NCBI GenBank assembly: GCA_034440615.1
Contig: JAOTOM010003950.1
Span: forward strand, 124,001-188,000
Direction of reading: 5' to 3'
From: Ashinkailepas kermadecensis
Taxonomy: Eukaryota; Arthropoda; Thecostraca; Neolepadidae
DNA length: 64,000 nt
Within the stretch, counting starts at the first letter, position 1. Every line of letters starts with the position of its first letter. Of this stretch, positions 10,261-63,398 are shown in pieces. The notes under the pieces were generated by a model. It worked only from the letters and a program-made list of their open reading frames with translations. It had not been told where the DNA came from and searched no databases. The position numbers were made by a program, and so were the translations under genes.

Positions 10261-10300
10261 GCACACACACACACACACGCACAAACACACACACACCGTC
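10155..10300. repeat. (AC)n / (ACGC)n microsatellite
   Basis: Mixed ACAC and ACGC repeats about 145 bases long. They lead directly into the 63-bp array, whose units each end in a short (AC)n run. Confidence 0.95.
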
Positions 10301-11465
10301 AGCTGGTCTCTAATAAAACGCCCACCGGCCGACACCGCGGCATCTCACACACACACCCCGTCTCTAATGAAAACGCCCACCAGCCGACACCGCGGCATCT
10401 CACACACACACCGTCAGCTGGTCTAATGAAAACGCCCACCGGCCGACACCGCGGCATCTCACACACACACACACACACCATCAGCTGGTCTTTAATGAAA
10501 ACGCCCACCGGCCGACACCGCGGCATCTCACACACATACCCCGTCAGCTGGTCTCTAATGAAAACGCCCACCGGCCGACACCGCGGCATCTCACACACAC
10601 ACCCCGTCAGCTGGTCTCTAATGAAAACGCCCACCGGCCGACACCGCGGCATCTCACACACACACCCCGTCAGCTGGTCTCTAATGAAAACGCCCACCGG
10701 CCGGCACCGCGGCATCTCACACACACACCCCGTCAGCTGGTCTCTAATGAAAACGCCCACCAGCCGACACCGCGGCATCTCACACACACACCGTCAGCTG
10801 GTCTCTAATGAAAACGCCCACCGGCCGACACCGCGGCATCTACACACACACACACACACCATCAGCTGGTCTTTAATGAAAACGCCCACCGGCCGACACC
10901 GCGGCATCTCACACATAACACACACCCCGTCAGCTGGTCTCTAATGAAAACGCCCACCGGCCGACACCGCGGCATCTCACACACACACCCCGTCAGCTGG
11001 TCTCTAATGAAAACGCCCACCGGCCGACACCGCGGCATCTCACACACACACCCCGTCAGCTGGTCTCTAATGAAAACGCCCACCGGCCGACACCGCGGCA
11101 TCTCACACACACACCCCGTCAGCTGGTCTCTAATGAAAACGCCCACCGGCCGACACCGCGGCATCTCACACACACACCCCGTCAGCTGGTCTCTAATGAA
11201 AACGCCCACCGGCCGACACCGCGGCATCTCACACACACACCCCGTCAGCTGGTCTCTAATGAAAACGCCCCACGGCATCTCATATAGGCCGTCAGCTGGT
11301 CTAATGAAAACGCCCCACGGAATCTTATATAGGCCGTCAGCTGGTCTCTAATGAAAACGCCCCACGGCATCTCACACACACCATCAGCTGGTCTCTAATG
11401 AAAACGCCCACCGGCCGGCACCACGGCATCTCACACAAGGCCGTCAGCTGGTCTCTAATGAAAAC
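10300..11465. repeat. 63-bp minisatellite, about 19 copies
   Basis: Each unit contains GTCAGCTGGTCTCTAATG, AAAACGCCCACCGGCC and ACACCGCGGCATCTC followed by (AC)n. Successive GTCAGCTGG positions at 10543, 10606, 10669 and 10732 give a period of exactly 63. Units at the left and right ends are truncated or lack the GGCCGACACC segment. Because 63 is a multiple of 3 the array stays open in several frames (for example 10299-10787 -, 10862-11278 -). I regard these as non-coding. Confidence 0.95.
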
Positions 11466-13447: not shown

Positions 13448-14484
13448 ACCATGCCACACCTGGACGACCTGGTGACAACCCCACACGACGGGGTCGTGTC
13501 CCACGGCCTCCACTCCACACCTGGGCGGCCTGGTGACAGCCCCACACGACGGGGTCGTGTCCCACGGCCTCCACTCCACACCTGGGCGGCCTGGTGACAG
13601 CCCCACACGACGGGGTCGTGTCCCACGGCCTCCACTCCACACCTGGGCGGCCTGGTGACAACCCTACACGACGGGGTCGTGTCCCACGGCCTCCACTCCA
13701 CACCTGGGCGGCCTGGTGACAACCCTACACGACGGGGTCGTGTCCCACGGCCTCCACTCCACACCTGGGCGGCCTGGTGACAGCCCCACACGACGGGGTC
13801 GTGTCCCACGGCCTCCACTCCACACCTGGGCGGCCTGGTGACAACCCCACACGACGGGGTCGTGTCCCACGGCCTCCACTCCACACCTGGGCGGCCTGGT
13901 GACAACCCCACACGACGGGGTCGTGTCCCACGGCCTCCACTCCACACCTGGGCGGCCTGGTGACAACCCCACACGACGGGGTCGTGTCCCACGGCCTCCA
14001 CTCCACACCTGAGCGGCCTGGTGACAACCCCACACGACGGGGTCGTGTCCCACGGCCTCCACCCCACACCTGGGCGGCCTGGTGACAGCCCCACACGACG
14101 GGGTCGTGTCCCACGGCCTCCACTCCACACCTGGGCGGCCTGGTGACAACCCCACACGACGGGGTCGTGTCCCACGGCCTCCACCCCACACCTGGGCGGC
14201 CTGGTGACAACCCCACACGACGGGGTCGTGTCCGACGGCCTCCACTCCACACCTGGGCGGCCTGGTGACAACCCCACACGACGGGGTCGTGTCCCACGGC
14301 CTCCACTCCACACCTGGGCGGCCTGGTGACAACCCCACACGACGGGGTCGTGTCCCACGGCCTCCACTCCACACCTGGGCGGCCTGGTGACAGCCCCACA
14401 CGACGGGGTCGTGTCCCACGGCCTCCACTCCACACCTGGGCGGCCTGGTGACAGCCCCACACGACGGGGTCGTGTCGCACGATC
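13448..14484. repeat. 61-bp minisatellite with a hairpin in every unit, 17 copies
   Basis: Each unit contains CACACCTGGGCGGCCTGGTG, CCCCACACGACGGGGTCGTG and TCCCACGGCCTCCACTC. The period is 61. Each unit holds the inverted repeat ACACGAC-GGG-GTCGTGT, able to form a 7-bp hairpin with a 3-base loop. No stop occurs in the minus-strand frames, so an open frame of about 441 codons (13186-14511 -) with a 61-residue super-period results. I regard it as an artefact of repeat sequence. Confidence 0.95.
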
Positions 14485-33532: not shown

Positions 33533-33775
33533 CTCGTGAGAGACGCGCAAGGACAACTTCTCCGTGAGAGACGCGCAAGGACAACTTCTCCGTTCGTGAG
33601 AGACGCGCAAGGACAACTTCTCCGTGAGAGACGCGCAAGGACAACTTCTCCGTTCGTGAGAGACGCGCAAGGACAACTTCTCCGTTCGTGAGAGACGCGC
33701 AAGGACAACTTCTCCGTGAGAGACGCGCAAGGACAACTTCTCCGCTGAGAGACGCGCAAGGACAACTTCTCCGTT
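33533..33775. repeat. 28/32-bp minisatellite, 8 copies
   Basis: GAGAGACGCGCAAGGACAAC followed by TTCTCCGT is repeated eight times. Units with an extra TCGT are 32 bases, others 28, and the two forms alternate irregularly. Confidence 0.95.
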
Positions 33776-35560: not shown

Positions 35561-35825
35561 CAGGCGCGGTCGGCCGGTTAATTTGGCGTCGGCCGCGCGG
35601 CCGCTCGGGTCACAGATGACGTCATGGCACGGCCGGCCGGAACGTCAGATCGATGCGGCCGTGACGTCAGCCGTTCCGGTCCCGCGAAGCGGCGCATCGA
35701 TGAGCTGCGCCAGCCCAGAATATCGCCCCGCCGCCGTCCCGACCGCTTCGATCGACCTAGTCGCACCTACCGGGTGAGGCGGCCCGCTCGCAGCGCGACC
35801 CTCGCCGCCGGCACACACGCCTCCC
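35560..35825. promoter_or_regulatory. CpG-rich region with two CRE palindromes
   Basis: Dense CpG. Perfect TGACGTCA at 35617-35624 and 35662-35669, with GGCCGGCCGG between them. The 42/45-bp minisatellite starts just to the right. This layout (CpG-rich, CRE, minisatellite) resembles 9660-10300. Promoter activity is inferred only. Confidence 0.35.
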
Positions 35826-35829
35826 GGCA

Positions 35830-36860
35830 GGGCACAATACGCCCCTGAACACGACAGTCTGTCTACTACCAGCAGGACACGGCACGCCCCTGAACATGAC
35901 AGTCTGCCTACTACCAGCAGGACACAGCATGCCCCTGAACACGACAGTCTGCCTCCCGGCAGAACACACCACACTTCTCAACATGAATCTACCTGCTGTC
36001 AGGACACAGCATGCCCCTGAACACGACAGTCTGCCTACTCCCAGCAGGACACAGCGCGCCCTTGAACACGACAGTCTGCCTCCCGGCAGGGCACAACACG
36101 CCCCTGAACACGACAGTCTGCCTACTATCAGCAGGACACGGCACGCCCCTGAACATGACAGTCTGCCTACTACCAGCAGGACACAGCATGCCCCTGAACA
36201 CGACAGTCTGCCTCCCGCCATGACACAACACACTTCTCAACATGAATCTACCTGCTGTCAGGACACAGCACGCCCCTGAACACGACAGTCTGCCTCCCGG
36301 CAGGACACAGCACGCCCCTGAACACGAGTCTGCCTACTTCCAGCAGGACACAGCGCGCCCTTGAACACGACAGTCTGCCTCCCGGCAGGACACAGCACGC
36401 CCCTGAACACGACAGTCTGCCTCCCTGCAGGACACAGCGCGCCCTTGAACACGACAGTCTGCCTACTCCCAGCAGAACACAGCACGCCCCTGAACACGAG
36501 TCTGCCTACTCCCAGCAGGACACAGCGCGCCCTTGAACACGACAGCCTGCCTCCCGGCAGGACACAGCACGCCCCTGAACACGACAGTCTGCCTACTCCC
36601 AGCAGGACACAGCACGCCCTTGAACACGACAGTCTGCCTACTCCCAGCAGAACACAGCACGCCCCTGAACACGAGTCTGCCTACTCCCAGCAGGACACAG
36701 CACGCCCCTGAACACGACAGTCTGCCTCCCTGCAGGACACAGCGCGCCCTTGAACACGACAGTCTGCCTACTCCCAGCAGAACACAGCACGCCCCTGAAC
36801 ACGAGTCTGCCTACTCCCAGCAGAACACAGCGCGCCCTTGAACACGACAGTCTGCCTCAG
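35830..36860. repeat. 42/45-bp minisatellite, about 24 copies
   Basis: The core GCCCCTGAACACGACAGTCT is followed either by GCCTCCCGGCAGGACACAGC (42-bp unit) or by GCCTACTCCCAGCAGGACAC (45-bp unit). Some units lack two bases (CACGAGTCTG), which breaks the reading frame, and two units near 35982 and 36239 carry a divergent AACATGAATCTACCTGCTG form. Open frames on both strands are a repeat by-product. Confidence 0.95.
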
Positions 36861-38620
36861 ATCAGGACACGGCCCAACTGTGAGAGTACAGCCTGCTTCT
36901 GAGCGCGGCCCAGGACGCCGAGCGCTAGCACTGCGCACAGGCCGACCGACCGCCTGACCAGACCCACGGCCACCTGCCCCACCTGCTCACTTGCCTTCTC
37001 ATCACCCCGCCCTGCGCACGATACGGAGCAACAACAGCGGTGATGGCGGATTTGTTTCAAGGCGCGTCAACTGCGTCGATCATTTTGCGGCAACGAAGCA
37101 ACAAAAGCAACAACCTTGCCCAAATGCCGGAAGCCAAATCAAGATATATTACATCAAGGAAGCACCAAGGAAGTTTGTTTTCGTACTCATATCTGCGAAG
37201 CCAGTGGATTCGTTGTCGCGGGAGCACTATCACAGACGGCCGACACGCGCACGCACGCACACACACACACACACACGTCGGTGTCGGACGTCGCCCGCAG
37301 CACTTGATTGAAGCGCGCCGCCCCGGCAGCCGCCTCGACACGGCAAGCTAGCCAGCAACGTGCCAGGCACAAGATTTGCGATACGCGACGCGATCGAACA
37401 CAGCAGCTGAGCCGCCGGTAGGCACAGAGCACGCGGCGATCGTCGCGCCCACGTGAACGTCCACGTCACGTCCACGTGGACACGGAGTGTGCCGGCTGCG
37501 TCCTCGTGGTCGCGGCCACACCTGACCCGGATACAGCTGCGCCCAGCGGCTTCCACGCCGCCGCTGCCTATTCCACTTACAGCTCGGTGTCCGAGTGACG
37601 GGCGAATTGCCAAAACAGGCGGCCGTCACAAAACGCCAAGTACAAAATACGTCGCCGAAGTGTAAGTCGTGGCTAACCAGACCAGAGCTAAACAACTACC
37701 CCCCCCCCCCACCGGGAAACATTAACATACTGTCCAAAAATAAACCCATACAGCTGGAGAAGCATCAACACAATTGACCTAGAAATGCACGCCTCAGATC
37801 ACCCATACTCATGACCATACACCAGGGGTGTCACTTTGTACATGCTAAGAGAGGTTACCAGCTACCTCAACCATTGATCTGTCCCCTCCCCCTCCCTTCC
37901 AATCAGACCGAAGCTTAACTATTGGTCGTACACTAAATAAAAAATAGCTTTCGAGGAAGCTCAAACTATAAAAAGTGATTCCCTCTTCCCCAATCAATTC
38001 CACAGTGACACCAATACCCATGCCCATGCGCTTATCCAAAGCTGGATATATTTCACCAAACAATGAGGAAGGAGTCCCGGTCGATTTTCAGATTGAATAG
38101 AGAATCTTAGAAAATTAAGATGAAGATAAAGAATACAAAATTAAATTGAGAAATCACCACGGTATCAAACCAGGAGGTGCACACACCGATACATATATCA
38201 TGAAGGCAGGTGGGTACACGAAAAGGGCGTTGGGGAGGAGCTACCAGTGTGCCAGTGTGGCGTGCGATCACCGGCCCCGACGACCAGGTGGTCGGCGCTG
38301 CTGCTCGAGCGGCGCAGCCACTCGCAGATAGCACATGTGACGCCCGTCACACCTGGTAGCGGCCCGTCACACCTGGTAGCGGCCGGCGGCCGGGTCGGCG
38401 TGGTCGTCACCGCTCAGCAGCACCACCTCCACTCGCTTCTCACTGCAATACAGCGCCGCGACGCCAGCCGCGACGCCAGCGGCGGTAAGCGCTGGCAGCG
38501 AGCACACCCCGCAACAGCCAAGCACGGCTCAGCACAGCACAGCAAACTGGCGCCACCAGACGCGCGGCAAACGACTCGCCAGCACACGTCTGGTGAGATG
38601 GCAACTAAATCGCAATCTGC
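36861..38620. other. GC-rich stretch with clustered palindromic motifs
   Basis: Includes an (AC)n run at 37255-37276, a cluster of ACGTG cores at 37449-37480 with two CACGTG E-boxes, and a 20-base tandem duplication of GTCACACCTGGTAGCGGCCC at 38348-38387 that repeats a T-box-like TCACACCT site. A CAGGGGTGTC MITE end lies near 37825. Open frames are numerous but have no known domain. It could be CpG-island regulatory DNA. Confidence 0.4.
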
Positions 38621-39864: not shown

Positions 39865-40147
39865 TTGCCATTACAAACTACTCTGTCGACCAGAATTCTG
39901 TTCCGATGCAGGCAGTGCATAATATATATATTTTTTTAATCCTAGTTATCTGAGTTATTAAGCAATAACACGCTTGCCACCATATTACCTTCCAAAATCT
40001 GATTGGTACTGTACCTAAGTAGTTTGAATGTTCTTGATATTTATTATTGTTCAGCGAAGCCCGATTGTAAACAAATCATATTGCATTTAAGTTATCTGGT
40101 CTGGAGAAGGTATTTTAGACCGATATATCGCAGTGAAAAGAGGTAAT

Positions 40148-42367
40148 ATGCCACCATTCAAATCGGGCAGACGGGGCAGACAAAAAACAAAGCATTTTCT
40201 TATCGGCCACCCAAGTGATCTGAGACGCAATGTGCTGCCCACAAGGAAGGACGTGGTCAACTATGTACGTAAATTACGCACAGACCTGGGTAATGAGCAC
40301 AATGACGGCAACTTTCCGGTTCGCACCGCATTTAAATCGACTGCCGAGACGCTCCGGGACATTTGGACAATGGAGGATATTCCAGTGGTTTTAGATCGAA
40401 GGATAGAAACAATGATAGAACTGTGCTATTCAAAATGGCGCAGCAGCTCCAAGAACACACTCAGGGTTACTGCCCTGGATTCGCTCTATCAGTGGCTCGA
40501 CAAAGTTCTTGACATAGCAATCTGCAAGTGCACTATAAGAGATGATTTCACGATGGACTGCGCCTGTGCAAAAGAGCATAAAGTACCGGCATTGGAAAGA
40601 CCGTACCTGTACGATCAGCGGGGCCCGAGGAAACTGCAAATTGGATCGGTGGATAGAAAAGAGAGTACGCGAAGACAGAAATGGAAATGCCGATGGGACA
40701 CACTAAAAAAACAGGAATCAGAACCAAAGAAGAGCAAAGCAGACGACATAGAAGACAAAGAAAGTGCAGAGCTCTGTTCAGATCCTCAACAACCTTCCGA
40801 AGATGACGATTGCGCTGATCGTAACGAGAGAGAATCTGAAGACGAATTTGAAGCCGATCTGCCCACTACTGACGTGAATAGAAATGTTTTGGCAGAGTCT
40901 GCTTTGGTAGCAGATCGGTACGGAATATCGAACAGAGCAGCAGCTGCCCTCATAAATGCGTACCAGGTGGATATAGGACGGTTAACCAAGGATAGTACCT
41001 CTACTGTTGTTGACGCCAAAAAACTGTGGAGGGCTCGAAGAACCGCCAGACAGAATGAAGCAAGTGCAAGAACAGAGAATATCCTGCAAGACGGATTGAC
41101 TGCGCTGTATTTTGATGGCCGTAAGGATGCGACCCTGGTAATCGACACCAATATGCGCGGCAAGTTGGAAATTCAGGAGCACTATGTAGTATTATCCGAG
41201 CCGAATGATCAGTACCTTACCCATTTTACGCCTGTGTCAGGAAAATCAGCTGATATCCACAGGGAACTCGAATCGATAGCGTGTGAGTACGGGGCAGGTG
41301 TGAAAGTGCTAGGCTGCGATGGGTGCGCTGTAAACACTGGGGTGCATTCGGGTGTTTGCCGACGCTTCGAACTTCAAAGGGACAAAGCTGTGCATTGGTT
41401 CGTTTGCATGTTACATGCCAATGAATTGAATCTGAGAGAGCTTTTCAAGACTGTCGACGGCATTACCACCGGTCCTAGATCATTCAGCGGGAATTTAGGC
41501 AAACATCTATCGGCGGACGTTGAGAATATGCCACTTGCAGATTTTGAGCTAGTCTCGGGGAAAGTAACTGAACTGAATGGAACCATGGCGGCTGACCTCA
41601 GTGCGGATCAGAAGTTGTTGCATAAGCTTAGCATTGCAGTGCAAGATGGCGCTGTACCCGAAGACGTCGCTCGTGCAAAGCCAGGACCCGTCAACGACGC
41701 GCGATGGTTGACCCTCGCATGCCGCATACTTCGCTTGTATGTGGCAACCACAAGACCTTCAGCCGCCCCGCGCCGTCTCGTCAAGTTCATCGTCAACCAC
41801 TATGCGCCCATGTGGTTTTTGATTAAGAGCCACTCTCACTGCACAGAAGGTTCAAAAAACCTCTATGAATCAGTCCGGCTGCTAAGAACGCTCGACGCAG
41901 AGGATCAAGTGATCGTCAGTCCAGTCATCCAGCGCAACGGGTTTTGAGGTCACCCGGAGGAGCTTCTCTTGGCCATGGCAGCTGACATTCGTCAACGGGC
42001 GTCGGAGATGATTCTGGGATGTCGACGAAGAATCACGAGGGAGGGTGTCCGGCCATACGAGATTCCGAAACTGGATTTTGACGCCACCACATACGTGGAC
42101 TTGATTGACTGGGACTCGGTGGCTATAACGGAACCACCGCTTCTTCGAGACGTGCCGGATAGTGAGATTGAAGAGCTCGCGGCCTCGCCTATCCTGATAA
42201 AGCACTATCCTGTACATACGCAGGCCGTTGAGAGAGCTATTCGGGAGGTAAGCAAGGCGTCAAGCTCCGTTGTTGGCCAGACGGCTCGACACGGCTTCGT
42301 CTGTGCCCGCCTGACCCACAGAGCGGCACAGCCAAACTTCGCCTCCAAAAAAGACATGAAACTGTAG
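40148..42367 (+). pseudogene. DDE-type transposase, interrupted by one in-frame TGA
   Basis: The first ATG is at 40148 (GGTAATATGCC); the open frame extends upstream only through a GTG. About 599 codons run to TGA at 41945-41947, and the same frame then continues to 42365-42367. Visible features, numbered from that ATG: a Cys cluster (CKC...DCAC) near residues 133-147, a charged linker, a first catalytic-type Asp in YFDGRKD (323), a second in CDGCAVN (391), and the CMLH motif (420-423), matching the C-x-x-H signature after the second Asp in several transposase superfamilies. After the stop the frame reads GHPEELLLAM and later YPVHTQAVERAI, which I recognise as the C-terminal part of the same family, common in arthropod genomes. 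One nonsense mutation therefore appears to be the main lesion. Family assignment is from memory and the superfamily is not settled. Confidence 0.85.
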
Positions 42368-43725: not shown

Positions 43726-43883
43726 GGTTATTGGTTTTACGACACGTCGACCGTTGAGTCATATAGCGTCGCCAATCTCTCACGCCGATTGGTCGCGGGC
43801 GAAGAGTAGCGACAGGTGAGACTCGAACCCACAACCTTTCGATTGTGAGACGAGCATCTTACCGCTAGACCACTCGTCCCCGT
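43726..43883 (-). mobile_element. tRNA-Val(CAC)-derived SINE, 158 bp, with perfect 15-bp target duplication
   Basis: On the minus strand the element starts near 43883 with ACGGGGACGAGTGGTCTAGC. The A box (TGGTCTAGCGGTAAGA) lies at 43857-43872, a CTCACAA anticodon-loop-like segment with anticodon CAC follows, then the B box GGTTCGAGTC at 43820-43829. The T stem pairs but the acceptor ends do not, so it is not a tRNA gene. The 3' end is TCGTAAAACCAATAACC. GTGGTGGATTAACTT flanks it on both sides without mismatch, direct evidence of a fairly recent retrotransposition. Confidence 0.88.
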
Positions 43884-45298: not shown

Positions 45299-45466
45299 TC
45301 ACAGTTCGGTCCTGGCCGCGACCGGTGTGGGCTCGATCTGCGGGTACAAGATACCCTCCTTGGGGCAGCCGGTGGTGATGGGCTCAAGCTTGTGGTGGCA
45401 GTCGATCAGCGCGAAGGTCTTGTCCAGACACAGCTTGATCTGAGACAGATACCACTGCTTGGTCTC
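45299..45466 (-). CDS. RNase T2 exon D (C-terminal exon)
   Basis: Begins at 45466 after acceptor CCGCCCACAG with ETKQWYLSQIKLCLDKTF, continues ALIDCHHK and GCPKEGILYPQIEP, and reaches TGA at 45301-45299. The L-C-x-D-K-x-F-x-L-I-D-C pattern is characteristic of T2 RNase C-termini. The bases around the stop also form a good donor (GTGAGTG), so a further exon cannot be excluded. The first 54 bases of this exon are the founding unit of the 86-bp array. Confidence 0.88.
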   Translation of the reverse strand, partial: ETKQWYLSQIKLCLDKTFALIDCHHKLEPITTGCPKEGILYPQIEPTPVAARTEL

Positions 45467-48400
45467 CTGTGGGCGGATTGTCACACGTGGTGAGGTACGA
45501 AGGTCTTGTCCAGGCACAGCTTGATCTGAGACAGATCCCACTGCTTGGTCTCCTGTGGGCGGATTGTCACACGTGGTCACGTACGAAGGTCTTGTCCAGG
45601 CACAGCTTGATCTGAGACAGATACCACTGCTTGGTCTCCTGTGGGCGGATTGTCACACGTGGTCACGTACGAAGGTCTTGTCCAGGCACAGCTTGATCTG
45701 AGACAGATACCACCGCTCGGTCTCCTGTGGGCGGATTGTCACACGTGGTCACGTACGAAGGTCTTGTCCAGACACAGCTTGATCTGAGACAGATACCACT
45801 GCTTGGTCTCCTGTGGGCGGATTGTCACACGTGGTCACGTACGAAGGTCTTGTCCAGGCACAGCTTGATCTGAGACAGATACCACCGCTCGGTCTCCTGT
45901 GGGCGGATTGTCACACGTGGTCACGTACGAAGGTCTTGTCCAGGCACAGCTTGATCTGAGACAGATACCACCGCTCGGTCTCCTGTGGGCGGATTGTCAC
46001 ACGTGGTCACGTACGAAGGTCTTGTCCAGGCACAGCTTGATCTGAGACAGATACCACCGCTCGGTCTCCTGTGGGCGGATTGTCACACGTGGTCACGTAC
46101 GAAGGTCTTGTCCAGACACAGCTTGATCTGAGACAGATACCACCGCTCGGTCTCCTGTGGGCGGATTGTCACACGTGGTCACGTACGAAGGTCTTGTCCA
46201 GGCACAGCTTGATCTGAGACAGATACCACCGCTCGGTCTCCTGTGGGCGGATTGTCACACGTGGTGAGGTACGAAGGTCTTGTCCAGATACAGCTTGATC
46301 TGAGACAGATACCACCGCTCGGTCTCCTGTGGGCGGATTGTCACACGTGGTCACGTACGAAGGTCTTGTCCAGGCACAGCTTGATCTGAGACAGATACCA
46401 CCGCTCGGTCTCCTGTGGGCGGATTGTCACACGTGGTGAGGTACGAAGGTCTTGTCCAGATACAGCTTGATCTGAGACAGATACCACCGCTCGGTCTCCT
46501 GTGGGCGGATTGTCACACGTGGTCACGTACGAAGGTCTTGTCCAGGCACAGCTTGATCTGAGACAGATACCACCGCTCGGTCTCCTGTGGGCGGATTGTC
46601 ACACGTGGTCACGTACGAAGGTCTTGTCCAGGCACAGCTTGATCTGAGACAGATACCACCGCTCGGTCTCCTGTGGGCGGATTGTCACACGTGGTCACGT
46701 ACGAAGGTCTTGTCCAGGCACAGCTTGATCTGAGACAGATACCACCGCTCGGTCTCCTGTGGGCGGATTGTCACACGTGGTCACGTACGAAGGTCTTGTC
46801 CAGGCACAGCTTGATCTGAGACAGATACCACCGCTCGGTCTCCTGTGGGCGGATTGTCACACGTGGTCACGTACGAAGGTCTTGTCCAGGCACAGCTTGA
46901 TCTGAGACAGATACCACCGCTCGGTCTCCTGTGGGCGGATTGTCACACGTGGTCACGTACGAAGGTCTTGTCCAGGCACAGCTTGATCTGAGACAGATAC
47001 CACCGCTCGGTCTCCTGTGGGCGGATTGTCACACGTGGTCACGTGCGAAGGTCTTGTCCAGGCATAGCTTGCTCCGAGACAGATACCACTGCTTGGTCTC
47101 CTGTGGGCGGATTGTCACACGTGGTGAGGTACGAAGGTCTTGTCCAGATACAGCTTGATCTGAGACAGATACCACTGCTTAGTCTCCTGTTCATGTAGGC
47201 CGATTGTCACAAGTGGTCACGTAAGACACATCAACACACCAGCATGAACACCTGTAGTACAGCACATACCGACATCGTGCAAAGCAACGCTGATGCGTAG
47301 GTTGTCTTCAGCTGCAACTGGCCGCACCTGGACTCCCAACACACCCCGACAGAAACCCAATACACTAAACAGAATCAAACTGCACGCAGGCCACGGACGC
47401 TCCACACATCTATTGTTCTATGGGCTAGCCTCCTGTGAGTCAGGCACGTCCCAGGCTGCCACACCAGAATGACGCCCACCATCAAGGTCCTTCAAGGTGG
47501 GCGATTCGCCCGAAGTGAGCACACCTTATCCCGACAATCAGCCCCCTATCCCCAACAGACGACCCTCCTCATCCTCAATACAGTCGATCCAACTTGTCGT
47601 AACAGTCGCCCTCCCTACCTCCGATACCTCCAATCCTCCTTTTTTCCCCGATGCAGTCGACCCAACGTATCTTCAACAGCTACCCAGCTGATCTCAGAGT
47701 CTTATCCCTGCCGGGTGAACCCATGCAACTCCCAGACAGTCGACCCGCGTTAGCACTACCGGTCAACTCGACCATTATCCCCCCGAGAGTTGACGCACCT
47801 TATCCCTGACGCAGTCGACAACCATGTGTCGCGAGAAGTGGGCGCTGAGCGCGGCTCGGATCTGCTCCCAGCTGTAGGCGGCCGAACCTGGCCGCACGCC
47901 TCCGGCACTCAGCACGGCCAGCATCTGGTAGCGCGCCAGCCAGCTGAGCCCCAGCGCAAAGTAGTCGCGCTCGTCGCCTATAGATGGCAGCTCGGCGGCG
48001 CACGTGCCGTGTTTGGTCCACTCGTGCTGTGCGCGTGCGAGGCGTCAGGCGGCGGTGCGGGCGTGCGAAGGTCGGCTCGCCAAGTCCGGTTAGGGGACGC
48101 CGTGCAAGGGGTGTGGAGGACTGAACGGGATCAAGGAGGCTACCCGCTGTGAGAACGTGGGACCCGGGATTGTCGGGTGACGGTCGGGAATGAGGCTCGC
48201 ATGTGCGGTGAGACGACTGTGAGGTTGGGCTGCACGAACAGCTTGCGTCCTTCTCCACTCTGTCCTCTATGCGTCCTTCTCTACAGCACGAACAGCTGAA
48301 CATTTTTACCAGACATCTTGAGTAAAGGGGAGGAGTGGGTGCATGGAGTTGAGGAAGAGCATGGGAGAGAAGCAGGAATTGGAACAAAAGAGCAGGTGGA

Positions 48401-51392
48401 ATTGATGTTGCTCTTTCAGTATAGCTGGCATCATGTCCGACTAGTACTCGATGACTGTATCATTCGTCCGACACCTAAATCACCAAACGGACGCTCAAAC
48501 TAAGCAAATATAGATAATATGATGCTTAACCACCCAAATCTAAAGATTGTTGACTTTATTTCCATTCCATTCTATACTAAACAGGTAAAAGTAGCATCCG
48601 TCCAACCTGTTGCGCATCACCTTAATTATTTATATTTTATTGGTATTCATAGTGTAAAGCATGCCAACAAAACTTTCCAAACACAAAAACACTGGCCATA
48701 CTTCTTAGCTTTTATGGAATCGGTTTGTTAAATCTCGCAAATACAAATACAAACAATAGCTTCCTGTCGCATGTCGGTACCTTCCAGAGCGAATACACAG
48801 AGCGACCGGCAAAGATGTTGGGCCAGAACTCCAGCAGATTTGGCTCCAGTTGCATCAGTTTGCTGAGGTCGAAAGGCAGCTTCTGACAGTGGTACGGGCC
48901 CCGAGTTCCAGCCTTGGTAGGCCTGAATAAGCACAACAGAGATGTGAGAACACCGGCAGAGTACTCTCTGATGTCGTCTGAATCGGCAACACTCGGCTCA
49001 ACACTCAGCTAGCCAACATTTCGTCCGACAGACAGCTTGCGATGTGGATGTATTTATGACTTTTTAAACCACTAGTGAATACCAGAAAACACACGTGTTA
49101 CTTCTATGCCACTTTAAACAATACATGAAGCACTTCCTGCCAAGGATTACAACTGTTTGAAACACAGCAGTATCTCCTCCTTCCAGAAAGAAACACTGGC
49201 ATTTCCGAAAAGTGTCAGTCGTCGCCAGCATTACATCCGTCGTCACTGCGCACTAAACTGTGAGCTGCAAGAGCTGAGTTGCGAGCTCTGCTAACCATGC
49301 AGGTGAGGCATCTGATCTCCAGCCCAAAGTGAAGCTGACGTTGCGAGCTCGTGCTAGACCGTGCAGGTGAGAGTGGGGCTCATCTGACGCCATTGCTCCA
49401 GCTCCAAAGTGAAGTGACAATGCATTGCTCGTTAGAGTGTGGAGGTGAGAGTGGGGCTCACCAGACGCCATTGCTCGTCAGAGTGTGGAGGTGGAGTGGG
49501 GCTCACCAGACGCCATTGCTCGTCAGGGGGGGGAGGAGGGAGGGGTAGGGGCTCACCAGACGCCATTGCTCGTTAGAGTGTGGAGGTGAGAGTGGGGCTC
49601 ACCAGACGCCATTGCTCGTTAGAGTGTGGAGGTGAGAGGGGGCTCCCAGACGCCATTGCTCGTTAGAGTGTGGAGGTGAGAGTGGGCGGAGCCATTGCTC
49701 GTTAGAGTGTGGAGGTGGTGGGGCTCACCAGACGCCATTGCTCGTTAGAGTGTGGAGGTGAGAGTGGGGCTCACCAGACGCCATTGCTCGTTAGGAGTGT
49801 GGAGGTGAGAGTGGGGCTCACCAGACGCCATTGCTCGTTAGAGTGTGGAGGTGAGAGTGGGGCTCACCAGACGCCATTGCTCGTTAGAGTGTGGAGGTGA
49901 GAGTGGGGCTCACCAGACGCCATTGCTCGTTAGAGTGTGGAGGTGAGAGTGGGGCTCACCAGACGCCATTGCTCGTTAGAGTGTGGAGGTGAGAGTGGGG
50001 CTCACCAGACGCCATTGCTCGTTAGAGTGTGGAGGTGGAGTGGGGCTCACCAGACGCCATTGCTCGTTAGAGTGTGGAGGTGGGGTGAGTGGGAGTGGGG
50101 CTCACCAGACGCCATTGCTCGTCAGAGTGTGGAGGTGAGAGTGGGGCTCACCAGACGCCATTGCTCGTTAGAGTGTGGAGGTGAGAGTGGGGCTCACCAG
50201 ACGCCATTGCTCGTTAGAGTGTGGAGGTGAGAGTGGGGCTCACCAGACGCCATTGCTGTAGGGGGGGGGTGGGGGCTCACCAGACGCCATTGCTCGTTAG
50301 AGTGTGGGGGAGAGTGGGGCTCACCAGACGCCATTGCTCGTTAGAGTGTGGAGGTGAGAGTGGGGCTCACCAGACGCCATTGCTCGTTAGAGTGTGGAGG
50401 TGAGAGTGGGGCTCACCAGACGCCATTGCTCGTTAGAGTGTGGAGGTGAGAGTGGGGCTCACCAGACGCCATTGCTCGTTAGAGTGGGGCGACGCCATTG
50501 CTCGTTAGAGTGTGGAGGTGAGAGTGGGGCTCACCAGACGCCATTGCTCGTCAGAGTGTGGAGGTGAGAGTGGGGCTCACCAGACGCCATTGCTCGTCAG
50601 AGTGTGGAGGTGAGAGTGGGGCTCACCAGACGCCATTGCTCGTCAGAGTGTGGAGGTGAGAGTGGGGCTCACCAGACGCCATTGCTCGTTAGAGTGTGGA
50701 GGTGGGCCAGACGCCATTGCTCGTTAGAGTGTGGAGGTGAGAGTGGGGCTCACCAGACGCCATTGCTCGTTAGAGTGTGGAGGTGAGAGTGGGGCTCACC
50801 AGACGCCATTGCTCGTTAGAGTGTGGAGGTGAGAGTGGGGGCTCACCAGACGCCATTGCTCGTCAGAGTGTGGAGGTGAGAGTGGGGCTCACCAGACGCC
50901 ATTGCTCGTTAGAGTGTGGAGGTGAGAGTGGGGCTCACCAGACGCCATTGCTCGTTAGGAGTGTGGAGGTGAGAGTGGGGCTCACCAGACGCCATTGCTC
51001 GTTAGAGTGTGGAGGTGAGAGTGGGGCTCACCAGACGCCATTGCTCGTCAGAGTGTGGAGGTGAGAGTGGGGCTCACCAGACGCCATTGCTCGTTAGAGT
51101 GTGGAGGTGAGAGTGGGGCTCACCAGACGCCATTGCTCGTTAGAGTGTGGAGGTGAGAGTGGGGCTCACCAGACGCCATTGCTCGTTAGAGTGTGGAGGT
51201 GAGAGTGGGGCTCACCAGACGCCATGCACGGTCCACGTGGTCACGTTGCTGAAGATCTCGCAGGCCCGCTGACTGCTGTTGCCCTTATAGTCGATGCACG
51301 CCGACTGCGGCCACTGCTGCGTGAAGATCAGGAAGTCCCAGCTCTTGTCGGGCACTCTCTCCGGCTGCGCCGGGGTCACGTGTGGCCGACAC
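45299..51392 (-). CDS. Ribonuclease T2 family protein, four visible exons, 5' end missing
   Basis: A T2-type endoribonuclease cleaves RNA through a 2',3'-cyclic phosphate and acts in lysosomes or outside the cell. Four minus-strand segments join in phase with GT-AG borders: exon A 51392-51216, B 48922-48781, C 48026-47799, D 45466-45299. Across the A/B junction the sequence reads WTVHGVWPTKAGTRGPYHC, the first catalytic box with its His. Exon C opens with HEWTKHGTC, the second catalytic box with its His. FTQQWPQSAC in exon A and the paired Cys residues also fit the family. The joined exons give about 237 residues, close to the usual mature length. Signal peptide and first codon are not fixed. 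Introns A-B and C-D hold the 46-bp and 86-bp arrays. No lesion is seen, so it is probably functional. Confidence 0.9.
45413..47222 (-). repeat. 86-bp minisatellite of exon cassettes, 21 copies including the real exon start
   Basis: GAAGGTCTTGTCCAG starts at 45413, 45499, 45585 and so on to 47133, which is 20 steps of exactly 86 bases with no length change. On the gene strand each unit is a 32-base spacer beginning GTACGTGACC and ending CCGCCCACAG, plus a 54-base segment encoding ETERWYLSQIKLCLDKTF or the exon's ETKQ form. Unit 1 is the start of exon D. Units near both ends keep the exon-like CTGCTTGG version, while central units carry CCGCTCGG, so the middle has been homogenised. A few units have GTACCTCACC at the spacer start. 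Confidence 0.97.
47223..47798 (-). other. RNase T2 intron C-D, unique part
   Basis: Non-repetitive intron sequence between the 86-bp array and exon C, mildly C/T-rich on the plus strand. No feature recognised. Confidence 0.7.
47799..48026 (-). CDS. RNase T2 exon C (second catalytic box)
   Basis: 228 bases (76 codons), phase 0 at both ends. The acceptor is ACGCGCACAG. It starts HEWTKHGTC, continues with YFALGLSWLARYQML and ends VVDCVRDK before donor GTGCGT. GC-rich codon use is similar to exon A. Confidence 0.92.
48027..48780 (-). other. RNase T2 intron B-C
   Basis: 754 bases bounded by GTACCG and CGCACAG on the gene strand. No repeat or internal gene recognised. Confidence 0.8.
48781..48922 (-). 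CDS. RNase T2 exon B
   Basis: 142 bases. The acceptor is GTGCTTATTCAG and the first base G completes the Trp codon. It reads PTKAGTRGPYHC, then LLEFWPNIFAGRSVYSLWK, and ends AAG before donor GTACCG. The WPN and S-W-K pattern is the conserved segment between the two catalytic boxes in T2 RNases. Confidence 0.9.
49376..51224 (-). repeat. 46-bp minisatellite containing copies of the exon A splice donor, about 40 copies
   Basis: The plus-strand unit contains GGGGCTCACCAGACGCCATT, GCTCGTTAGAGTGTGG and AGGTGAGAGT. The standard period is 46, with several truncated or G-run-expanded units (near 49527, 49680, 50260, 50490 and 50700). On the gene strand every unit carries ATGGCGTCTG followed by GTGAGCCCC, which is the last 10 bases of exon A plus its donor site. 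The array abuts exon A directly, ending at 51224, and fills most of intron A-B. Confidence 0.97.
51216..51392 (-). CDS. RNase T2 exon A (first catalytic box)
   Basis: Encodes WDFLIFTQQWPQSAC and then VTTWTVHGVW, ending two bases into the Trp codon (TG) before the donor GTGAGC. The acceptor is placed at GCGTGCTCAG just before 51392. The frame stays open further upstream, and an in-frame ATG at 51568 is followed by a hydrophobic stretch (IICTLIASVAFWSLISV) that could be a signal peptide, so exon A may instead be the first exon, 51568-51216. The intervening Arg-rich segment makes me prefer the shorter version. Confidence 0.85.
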
Positions 51393-51829: not shown

Positions 51830-53400
51830 TGTTTTGGGTATGGGAAGTGCTCCACATAAGCTGGCGAGAGAAAACAAACTAGCAAAACCTTTGTCAGAAA
51901 TGCCAGGGCAGATAAGTGAAACATGAGAAATTCAAGCAACTTACTAGGTGGAATCCAAGGGATAGACTTCACCAGCAAAAAAGACATGAAATCCTTGTTC
52001 ACGAATGTCCCTATCGGGGGAGCCATGGAAGCGGTTTCTCGGGCCTTAAACAAGTAAAACAATTTGGAGCTTCCAGTTCCCAAGTCATTGCATACAGCTT
52101 GTGCATATATGTGTGGAATTTGGAGCACTACAGTTTCAGGGGGAAGAATATCGTCAAATCAGCGGCCTCACCATGGGTTCACCATTGAGTCCTGTTCTGA
52201 CATGTTTGTTTATGGAAACCCTCGAGGCAGACAATTACAAATCTATGATTGGCCCGAACTCCCTTTGGCTGAGATATGTAGATGATGTACTGGTGAATGT
52301 TGATCAAGATACTGATATTGATGTGGTCAACACAGATATTAACGCTGTACATCCATCGATTCAATTACGTTAGAAAAAGAAAAAGAAAAGGATGATGAGG
52401 CTGAGATTCCTTTCTTGGACACACTGATCAAGCACTGACAGCAGATGCAGATTTTCAGTATACAGAAGGTCCACTAGCAAGAACGATATTTTGCACTATT
52501 TCTCGGGTCACAGCCATGAAACAAAAACAAGGGTCCTAATGGTTATTTTCTTAAGGGCTTATATAATCTGCCACCCTGAGTGCCTCACGGAAGACTGCCT
52601 GTCTTTCATCAAAGAGTCTTTCAAGTTGCTGAAATATCCAGAGGGTCTGATAGTGAAGTTGCACCAAAAAGCAGAAAAGGTGATGTGCATGAAAAAGGCC
52701 AAGCAACAAGTTTTGACAATTATGTTACTGCATATCAGTAACATAATCACAGGGAGCAGTCACCATCTCCCGATTCATAAAAGACAAAATTTACATCAGT
52801 CTATCAGCAGGGGTCAAAATCAGACATAGTCAGGAAAGGGGTTTGTAACATGAGCAAAAAAGCATGGTCTACAAAATTCCTGGCACAGGAGGATGTGGAA
52901 AAAGTTACTAAGGGGAAATGGGGCAGGGGATAGGGGCTAGAATTGGGGAACATCGTTCAGACCTCAGATACCATAGACTTACTAATGCTATGCTGATGAA
53001 GAAGGCCATCTCCCAAATTGGAAAAGAACATCTGTTCTTTGCGGTGGACTTGGGAAGGGGTGTCAGAAGATGGTGGAATCTGCGTATATTGCCACACATG
53101 AGAATATCAATGGTATTTCTGGTAGTTTCAAAATTGCAAGTGTTGTAGCAGAACTGAATGTGGAACATGTTGAAAAATGGTAGGTTAAACATCACTGTCA
53201 TACTTATTTGGTTGTTTCCAATTTACTGGTTTCACTATTTGGTTTACTCGGTGTCAGTGCATGCAGTGCTGCATGATTTGTCTTGCTACCTGTGTTAAAA
53301 AAACAAGTGCTAAATATTACCATGCCTGGAAATCGTTGGTAGCTTGAGAAAGGTGTGAGCTGAAATGTTGCTAATAAAATTATGTTCCCATTGCTCTGTG
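51830..53400 (+). mobile_element. Penelope-like retroelement, decayed (reverse transcriptase and GIY-YIG remnants)
   Basis: Spread over three frames with stops, the plus strand reads LFTNVPIGGAMEAVSRAL near 51991, GLTMGSPLSPVLTCLFMETL at about 52160-52220, and LRYVDDVLV near 52270. The last is the catalytic box of a reverse transcriptase, and the GS-PLSP form is typical of Penelope-like elements. EIPFLDTLIKH and VYRRSTSKNDILHYFSGH follow, as in the family. GARIGEHRSDLRYHRLTNA and FKIASVVAELNVEHVEKW near 52930-53180 fit the C-terminal GIY-YIG endonuclease part. CTAATAAAATTATG near 53367 may be the 3' end. Multiple frameshifts make it inactive. It lies upstream of the RNase T2 exons and may sit in a further 5' intron. 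Confidence 0.82.
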
Positions 53401-61999: not shown

Positions 62000-62378
62000 G
62001 GCCATGGGAAGATGGCGGCCCGGCCAGATAAAGAGTCGGGTGATGGTGCTTCTGTCGCATAGCAACGGTAGACTGCAGCAAAGCACCTTCAGTGCTCGTT
62101 GCGCGGCAGCTGACGTGAGTCGCGAAGGTGCACGGCCATGGCAAGATGGCGACCCGGCCAGGTAAAGTTTGGTGAGGGTGCTGCTGTCGCCTAGCAATGG
62201 CAGAATGCAGCAAAGCACCTTCAGTGCTCGTTAGGCGGCAGCTGACGAGTCGCGAAGGTGCACGGCCATGGCAAGATGGCGACCCGGCCAGGTAAAGTTG
62301 GGTGAGTGTGCTGCTGTCGCCTAGCAACGGCAGGCTGCAGCAAGGTGCCTCCAGTGCTCGTCTACGCGCCAGCTGACA
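62000..62378 (+). repeat. Three ~130-bp tandem repeats in the leader, each with a YY1-like motif
   Basis: AAGATGGCGGC at 62009 and AAGATGGCGAC at 62143 and 62273 mark three units (spacings 134 and 130). Each is followed by CCGGCCAG, a CTGTCGC(C/A)TAGCAA segment, CAGTGCTCGT and CAGCTGACG. The first motif is an exact YY1 consensus and the others differ at one base. Confidence 0.85.
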
Positions 62379-62579
62379 GAGACAGGACTCATCGCTAGCA
62401 ACGGGCGATTTTCAACGTCGGAACCGTGAGTGCCTTGTCAAGGCGAGGCATACATGTTCAATGAGGCGTGTGGCATGATGCGGTCCAGCCAGATGCGTTT
62501 GGATATTGGAAGTGTCGGATGATGAGTATACGCAGTGTTCACAAGTCTGTCTAGTTGAAGCCCAGTAGGTACTAGCAGA

Positions 62580-63398
62580 ATGGAACCCAGGTTTGCTATG
62601 GTTGGTGTGCCAAGTTTCGACGGAGATGGCTCGGTGCAGAACTTTTTAGACGAATATGAGAGGTTCAGTAGGCTTCATGATTGGGACGAGAGGCGGAAGT
62701 TGGATATTTTGCCATTGTGTCTAACAGGAATCGCGAGGGATGCGTTCGATGCCTTTGGTGCCTGACAGAGAGAGTTCTATGGTGGAGTTGAGCTCGGCCT
62801 GAAGGGGAGTTTCAGCAGTGGTAGCTCTGTGGACCACCATGTGGCCCTTATGGATCTCAGGTACGACCCATCCCAGTCGCTAGATGCGTTTGTGATACGG
62901 CTTAAGAAGATGGTGTCTCAAGCATTCCCAGGACAGGCATTGGAGGGTCTGCTATACAACCATTTCCTGTCGGCACTTCCAGGCGACCTGTACTCGCCTG
63001 TTGTCGCGTCGGGAGCGAGTACTTTTGAGGATGCAGTGGCAAAAGTACGTCACGTGTGCAGTGCCGCTCGGCACGTGATGCAGCCGGTGCGCCAGATGGC
63101 TGCAAGGGGGGCCCAGCCTGGAGCGTCAGCTGTTGCTCGGTTAGAGAAGAGGATAGCCGAATTAGAGCTCCAAGTCCAGACTGGACTCAGGTCCAGTGGA
63201 CCTGTGCGTAGGCCGCGCGAGTGTTACGCCTGTGGCCAGCCTGGTCACATGAGGTATAACTGTGACAAGCGAGATGTTAGGTGCCCGAAATGCGATTGTC
63301 AGGGGCATGTGCAAGAAGTGTGTGGGAGGTATTTGGGAAACTTCCGCGGGTCCACCCGAGGGGCCATGGGGGGACCCGGACCCAGTCAAAGGCCGTGA
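62580..63398 (+). pseudogene. gag: Retrotransposon Gag, interrupted by one in-frame stop
   Basis: Gag packages element RNA into particles. ATG at 62580 starts MEPRFAMVGVPSFDGDG, then a retrotransposon-gag-type helical region with LTGIARDAFDAFGA. TGA at 62763-62765 interrupts the frame, which continues unchanged afterwards (LRYDPSQSLDAFVIRLKKMV) to TGA at 63396-63398. Near the C-terminus are two CCHC zinc knuckles, CYACGQPGHMRYNC and CPKCDCQGHVQEVC, both C-x2-C-x4-H-x4-C. The total is about 272 codons. Apart from the stop the frame is clean, so the insertion looks recent. Two knuckles and the following aspartic protease place it with Ty3/gypsy-like elements. Confidence 0.88.

Follow-up and report, generated by a model that had tools for sequence, protein, structure and literature searches.

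The barnacle Ashinkailepas kermadecensis carries a predicted RNase T2 gene in which two introns consist largely of tandem copies of the gene's own predicted splice junctions. The gene lies in a stretch of 64,000 nucleotides (the window; GenBank assembly GCA_034440615.1, contig JAOTOM010003950.1, positions 124,001 to 188,000), which comes from an assembly of 907.7 Mb and 4,689 contigs. We consider it probable (roughly 0.8) that the two arrays belong to the junction-spanning minisatellites called 'mirages' in amphioxus, and that they are passed over by splicing that uses the exon-adjacent copy. Each would have begun as the tandem duplication of a short segment lying across a splice site, followed by amplification; splicing is predicted to use the copy next to the exon and to ignore the extra copies. 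The pair adds a large new case to a known kind of array and takes that kind into another branch of animals.

RNase T2 gene and its two arrays

The gene is on the minus strand and has four predicted exons, A to D, whose boundaries were predicted from homology and splice motifs. The exons and arrays are as follows.

51216..51392, minus strand: exon A, 177 nt, ending in CATGGCGTCTG and followed by gtgagc; from tblastn of proteins P0001 and P0002
48781..48922, minus strand: exon B, 142 nt; from tblastn with P0001 and P0002
47799..48026, minus strand: exon C, 228 nt, carrying HEWTKHGTC; from tblastn
45299..45466, minus strand: exon D, 168 nt including the stop codon TGA; from tblastn
49394..51225, minus strand: units 1-39 of the 46-bp array that spans the junction; each unit combines the 10 terminal bases of exon A with the donor and 36 intron bases
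49250..49393, minus strand: 40th unit of the 46-bp array, the degenerate most distal stretch, 144 bp as cut; donor lost
45467..47186, minus strand: 20 units of the 86-bp array that spans the junction; each unit joins 31-32 bases from the 3′ end of the intron to the opening 54-55 bases of exon D
47187..47222, minus strand: older, degenerate copy of the intron-derived part of the 86-bp unit, lying upstream of the farthest unit; limits approximate and set by eye

Joined, the exons give 714 nt, or 237 codons and a stop, and GT and AG are present at the predicted inner boundaries. The translation matches Pfam PF00445 (Ribonuclease_T2) with 165.3 bits over profile positions 1-188 of 188, a full-length domain. 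It contains HGVWP in exon A and HEWTKHGTC in exon C, which we take to be the first, HGVW(P), and second catalytic motifs of the family; H107, E108, W109, K111, H112, G113, T114 and C115 are invariant in an alignment of eight sequences (A1). The full-length match and the two motifs bear out the identification of the gene in the preliminary description, which was made from the window's letters and open reading frames. We infer the gene model itself from sequence. Its best relatives are P0001, a JGI protein (71%), and P0002 from the barnacle Amphibalanus amphitrite (74%), the closest named relative; the remaining crustacean relatives reach at most 46%. P0001, of 252 aa, is encoded on a contig of 1,049 bp and is therefore presumably from a spliced cDNA. 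Neither P0001 nor P0002 has a repeated segment. The predicted protein P0087 diverges at about both ends of exon C. A tblastn search of P0002 against the window gave nothing convincing for P0002 residues 1-45, where a signal-peptide exon was sought. A weaker second RNase T2 match is present in the genome at C2392:48679-48870 (L003; 29.3 bits, profile positions 74-135).

The first unit of the 46-bp array consists of the 10 terminal bases of exon A (ATGGCGTCTG) and 36 intron bases. Counting the exon's own copy, 40 units run away from exon A, each beginning ATGGCGTC, and 36 of the 40 retain TCTG/GTGAG (the slash marks the exon boundary); the roughly 40 repeats of the last 10 exon A bases and donor that had been described earlier are thus confirmed. 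Units 1-3 are identical, and the 39th, normal in itself, has 32 other bases after it. Polarity is weak: units farther from exon A carry more edits (Spearman 0.34, P 0.03, 40 units), with a coefficient of 0.22 (P 0.19) when the last two units are removed. A possible hairpin at the donor, in which GGTGAG would pair with CTCACC 8 nt on, was rejected because three RNA folds were no better than shuffles (z-scores 0.34, -0.23 and 0.19).

Upstream of exon D lie the 20 extra units of the 86-bp array, every one exactly 86 bp long and every one ending its intron part with the acceptor CAG, which agrees with the earlier count of 20 extra copies of the acceptor and first 54 bases of exon D. The unit shares 54 nt and one further G with exon D. 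Two variants, at positions 7 and 11, occur in 15 of the 20 units and have no counterpart in exon D.

By arithmetic from the coordinates, the 46-bp array makes up ~79% of intron A-B and the 86-bp array ~74% of intron C-D. Apart from the exon's own copy, both arrays sit on the intron side, and their normal units each hold exon-edge sequence and a splice site. Their Tandem Repeats Finder scores, 2881 and 3313, indicate that neither is a product of chance. When the genome was searched with the 86-bp and 46-bp units (at least 21 and at least 18 matches, respectively), all matches listed were on contig C3453, at this locus, and no second copy of the locus was found among them.

Arrays at predicted splice junctions of other genes

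Loci elsewhere in the genome were picked by match score and regardless of repeats: the 30 best-scoring each from kinase and from myosin head exon matches, 60 in all, a sample biased to long exons. (There were 138 kinase matches; those on C3441, C2231, C774 and C3729, with stops inside or at the contig start, were left off one listing, and no count is affected.) Minisatellites, defined by a period of at least 15 and at least 2.5 copies, make up 11.9% of the 206.5 kb of these loci; one locus, L058, holds an N. Junctions were taken from the edges of profile matches, and an edge was called junction-like if the open frame extended at most 150 nt beyond it, as for 81 of the 120 edges. An array was called spanning if it holds exon-edge sequence together with a predicted splice site, as assigned by eye from contexts. 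Arrays span 6 of the 81 junction-like edges:

L037: donor-spanning array, 57-bp unit, GT in 25 of 25 motif copies
L049: donor-spanning array, 66-bp unit, GT in 5 of 5
L055: donor-spanning array, 32-bp unit, GT in 4 of 6
L079: donor-spanning array, 39-bp unit, GT in 29 of 30
L050: acceptor-spanning array, 56-bp unit, AG in 7 of 10
L083: acceptor-spanning array, 95-bp unit, AG in 3 of 3

These copy counts tolerate mismatches, and some of the L055 matches lie outside that locus's 2.6-copy array. At four further loci (L064, L069, L078 and L082) arrays end about 10 bp or less from the exon and do not include it, and inspection of L062, L065 and L072 by eye gave no junction spanning. Only one array lies wholly within exon matches, in 31.2 kb (80 loci). 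The eight spanning units, from the six loci and the RNase T2 gene, show no similarity to one another at E 0.01. A dispersed element or introner was accordingly rejected as the source of the arrays: among the matches listed the RNase T2 units occur at this locus only, and the eight junction units are unrelated.

Under uniform placement 1.45 spanning arrays would be expected at the 81 edges, as against the six seen (P 0.004). Within 50 bp on either side of an edge there are 14 arrays versus 3.93 expected (P 6e-5), the expectation being scaled to two bins from 57 arrays across 29 farther-out 50-bp bins; the array at L065 (-96) is not counted among the 14, and in the listed cases, as far as checked, overlapping loci add to the background and not to the near-edge count. 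The preliminary description had raised the possibility of a shared, junction-linked amplification, and this gains support here, since arrays of unrelated units span or abut other predicted junctions above the uniform expectation. The excess is modest, post hoc and consistent.

Twenty kinesin exons were fetched afterwards; 33 of their 40 edges are junction-like, and they were kept out of the P values. One of them, L094, has an 84-bp acceptor duplication in 2 copies and a donor array with its start at the donor; the acceptor-spanning arrays of L097 and L086 are weak. Between the upstream acceptor copy of L094 (sense position 266) and the true acceptor are 84 nt with no stop in the exon frame; on this sequence, splicing at the copy would add 28 residues, so that here a junction copy could be productive. 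A kinesin gene found on two contigs, which may be alleles or paralogues, has a non-spanning array that differs at 20 of 205 positions and a flank that differs at 11 of 428, and both stretches end inside the array; another stretch of the pair, aligned over 592 bases, has a single 9-base gap and 0 mismatches. The pair suggests that arrays change faster than their flank, and is not informative on junction arrays.

Alternative explanations

Two alternatives give the extra splice sites a role, and both can be judged from translations of the predicted RNase T2 mRNA made for every intact donor and acceptor. The preliminary description proposed that splicing might choose among near-identical sites and so be buffered. 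There are indeed many intact sites (36 of 40 donors, 20 of 20 acceptors), and the L094 acceptor 84 nt upstream might be productive in its own gene. However, with any one of the 35 extra donors used alone the RNase T2 protein would stop after residue 59, short of the second catalytic motif, and with any one of the 20 upstream acceptors after residue 205 rather than 237. Because use of a single extra site would give an early stop, buffering is disfavoured for this gene, and on the predicted model an extra site could not stand in for the true one. Similarly, read-through past the four other spanned donors (L037, L049, L055 and L079) reaches a stop within 11 residues. We give this explanation hardly any credence. 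The frame stays open only with 54-nt mini-exons, for 1, 2 or 20 copies, and the 86-bp array could in principle be a bank of alternative mini-exons that add 18-residue repeats to the protein. All 20 units are open across the 54 nt with an intact acceptor CAG, none has an indel, and the candidate donor GTACGT follows codon 18 in 15 of them. It is altered in the other five (4 GTACCT, 1 GCACGT), however, and its exon-side context, TTC/G, is weak by the donor consensus. Moreover, 6 of the nine variants within the 54 nt change a residue, so there is no sign of protein constraint, and the six aligned homologues that cover the region have no such repeat. Mini-exons from the array are thus conceivable and unsupported, and such a bank is very unlikely.

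The remaining alternatives concern the origin of the arrays. Minisatellites might be born anywhere in this repeat-rich genome, with no preference for junctions, the junction cases being chance events that survive since splicing hides them. This is possible, if doubtful. Minisatellites occupy 11.9% of the 60 loci, the density of array edges climbs with GC content (0.3 per kb below 40%, 1.8 at 60-70%), and GC content is itself higher within 50 bp of the edges (56-60%) than beyond 100 bp (49-54%). Allowing for GC weakens the excess yet leaves it in place: with a factor of 1.3 the P value for spanning arrays becomes 0.013, and with factors of 1.3 and 1.6, both of our choosing, that for near-edge arrays becomes 9e-4 and 5e-3. 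An artefact, in which the assembler inflated or misplaced the arrays, would fit the number of contigs and the odd, read-error-like C-run indels in some 46-bp units. Against it are the distinct unit variants in mosaic order, the exact exon ends, the grading of the distal end of the 46-bp array into a degenerate copy and the equivalent layout on other contigs; we find it highly improbable.

We return to junction-spanning minisatellites that splicing is predicted to pass over. Several points weigh against this interpretation. Array edges are commoner in GC-rich DNA, and the P values weaken under the GC factors. The junction test was devised after the arrays had first been seen and was not blind; this, the use of profile edges as junctions and the by-eye spanning calls make the P values guides only. 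Of the 46 edges excluded by the junction-like rule, 5 also have arrays nearby (L056, L069, the L094 acceptor and donor, and L102); of these five, L069 and both L094 edges resemble junction cases by eye. Finally, the splice sites in the extra copies are mostly undecayed, though useless sites might be expected to decay; concerted homogenisation may explain this. On the same interpretation, the exon-proximal donor and acceptor would be the sites used, and the arrays would do nothing beyond lengthening their introns. The birth of arrays would be favoured, and not only tolerated, at splice junctions. The RNase T2 arrays appear to exemplify a tendency, across the genome, for minisatellites to form at splice junctions, and junction arrays are probably a common route of intron growth here rather than a switch in a single gene.

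Comparison with known systems

The comparisons in this section draw on excerpts of the cited papers. The mirages of amphioxus are tandem arrays that cover exon-intron boundaries, both 5′ and 3′, in Adh3, the globin genes BflGb6 and BflGb9, and PGBD5; they have been proposed as a source of new introns, and RT-PCR points to regular splicing, undisturbed by the arrays (PMC3087553, PMC3902484). BflGb6 has 6 and 3 repeat units in two haplotypes, and PGBD5 has 2-7 units and two mirage arrays in one gene (PMC3087553, PMC3902484). Both RNase T2 arrays likewise span a predicted exon-intron boundary, carry AG/GT signals in many units (36 of 40 donors, 20 of 20 acceptors) and have units, of 46 and 86 bp, inside the reported 10-160 bp range (PMC3087553). 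They match the structural features of mirages that were tested. They differ in occurring in a barnacle and not a cephalochordate, in having 40 units and 20 extra units versus 6 and 3 in the two BflGb6 haplotypes and 2-7 in PGBD5, and in that an excess over uniform placement was tested here in other genes. Two such arrays in one gene had been called very unusual; this does not hold within this genome, and the amphioxus mirages, with PGBD5 and its two arrays, are a precedent.

Other parallels are looser. Variable internal tandem repeats in human segmental-duplication genes are also minisatellites at exon-intron boundaries that may create introns, but they average four 30-bp units, belong to recent human paralogues and are half coding (PMC2812944). 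In the Rogers model of intron gain through AG/GT tandem duplication, a stretch with a splice signal is likewise duplicated and the extra copies are removed as an intron (PMC3087553), whereas the RNase T2 case enlarges existing introns and no new intron is shown. C. elegans CeRep25B, an intronic minisatellite near alternative exons, was rejected as a parallel, being a dispersed family and apparently not junction copies (PMC4039745). In our literature search we noticed no other report of such arrays beyond amphioxus, and the excerpts of barnacle genome papers do not mention them. Mirage-type arrays, seen in a few amphioxus genes and loosely in human (PMC2812944), are thereby extended to an arthropod with a measured junction excess. 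The genome offers a large natural set for the study of intron growth, of site choice among dozens of identical sites, and of junctions as hot spots of tandem duplication.

A more speculative proposal, which we regard as unlikely, is that in hyper-variable genomes the homology between parental copies breaks at exon edges, and that recombination or repair running off an exon gives birth to junction duplications. Introns would then lengthen as their junctions are copied, out of reach of selection because the spliceosome uses only the exon-proximal site. If true, this would explain the same arrays in amphioxus and barnacle. The proposal is prompted by high diversity in both groups. Amphioxus is highly polymorphic. 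Nucleotide diversity in the barnacle Balanus improvisus is also reported to be very high, about 5% in coding regions (PMC8270832).

Other features of the window and genome

Less than 1 kb from RNase T2 exon A, at 52050-52373 (plus strand), is a reverse transcriptase fragment (RVT_1, 38.3 bits) that by eye resembles Penelope-like elements. A zinc-knuckle open reading frame at 62766-63398 (plus strand; zf-CCHC, 23.5 bits) is likely a retroelement gag. A 618-codon open frame at 40091-41947 (plus strand) has no Pfam match at E 0.01 and is possibly, at a guess, a transposase remnant; a tRNA-like match at 43814-43874 (minus strand; 38 bits) is perhaps, equally as a guess, the head of a short interspersed element. 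Further minisatellites in the window are at 10285-11409, 13454-14481, 33534-33775, 35819-36870 and 62000-62381.

Among the sampled loci, L066, L068, L070, L071, L072 and L077 are copies of one myosin exon (profile positions about 376-436) in rows on C4393 and C4673, and these rows resemble mutually exclusive exons. The contigs of L031 and L034 are 99.75% identical over 3.2 kb, with gaps only and 0 mismatches, and are either retained haplotigs or a recent duplication.
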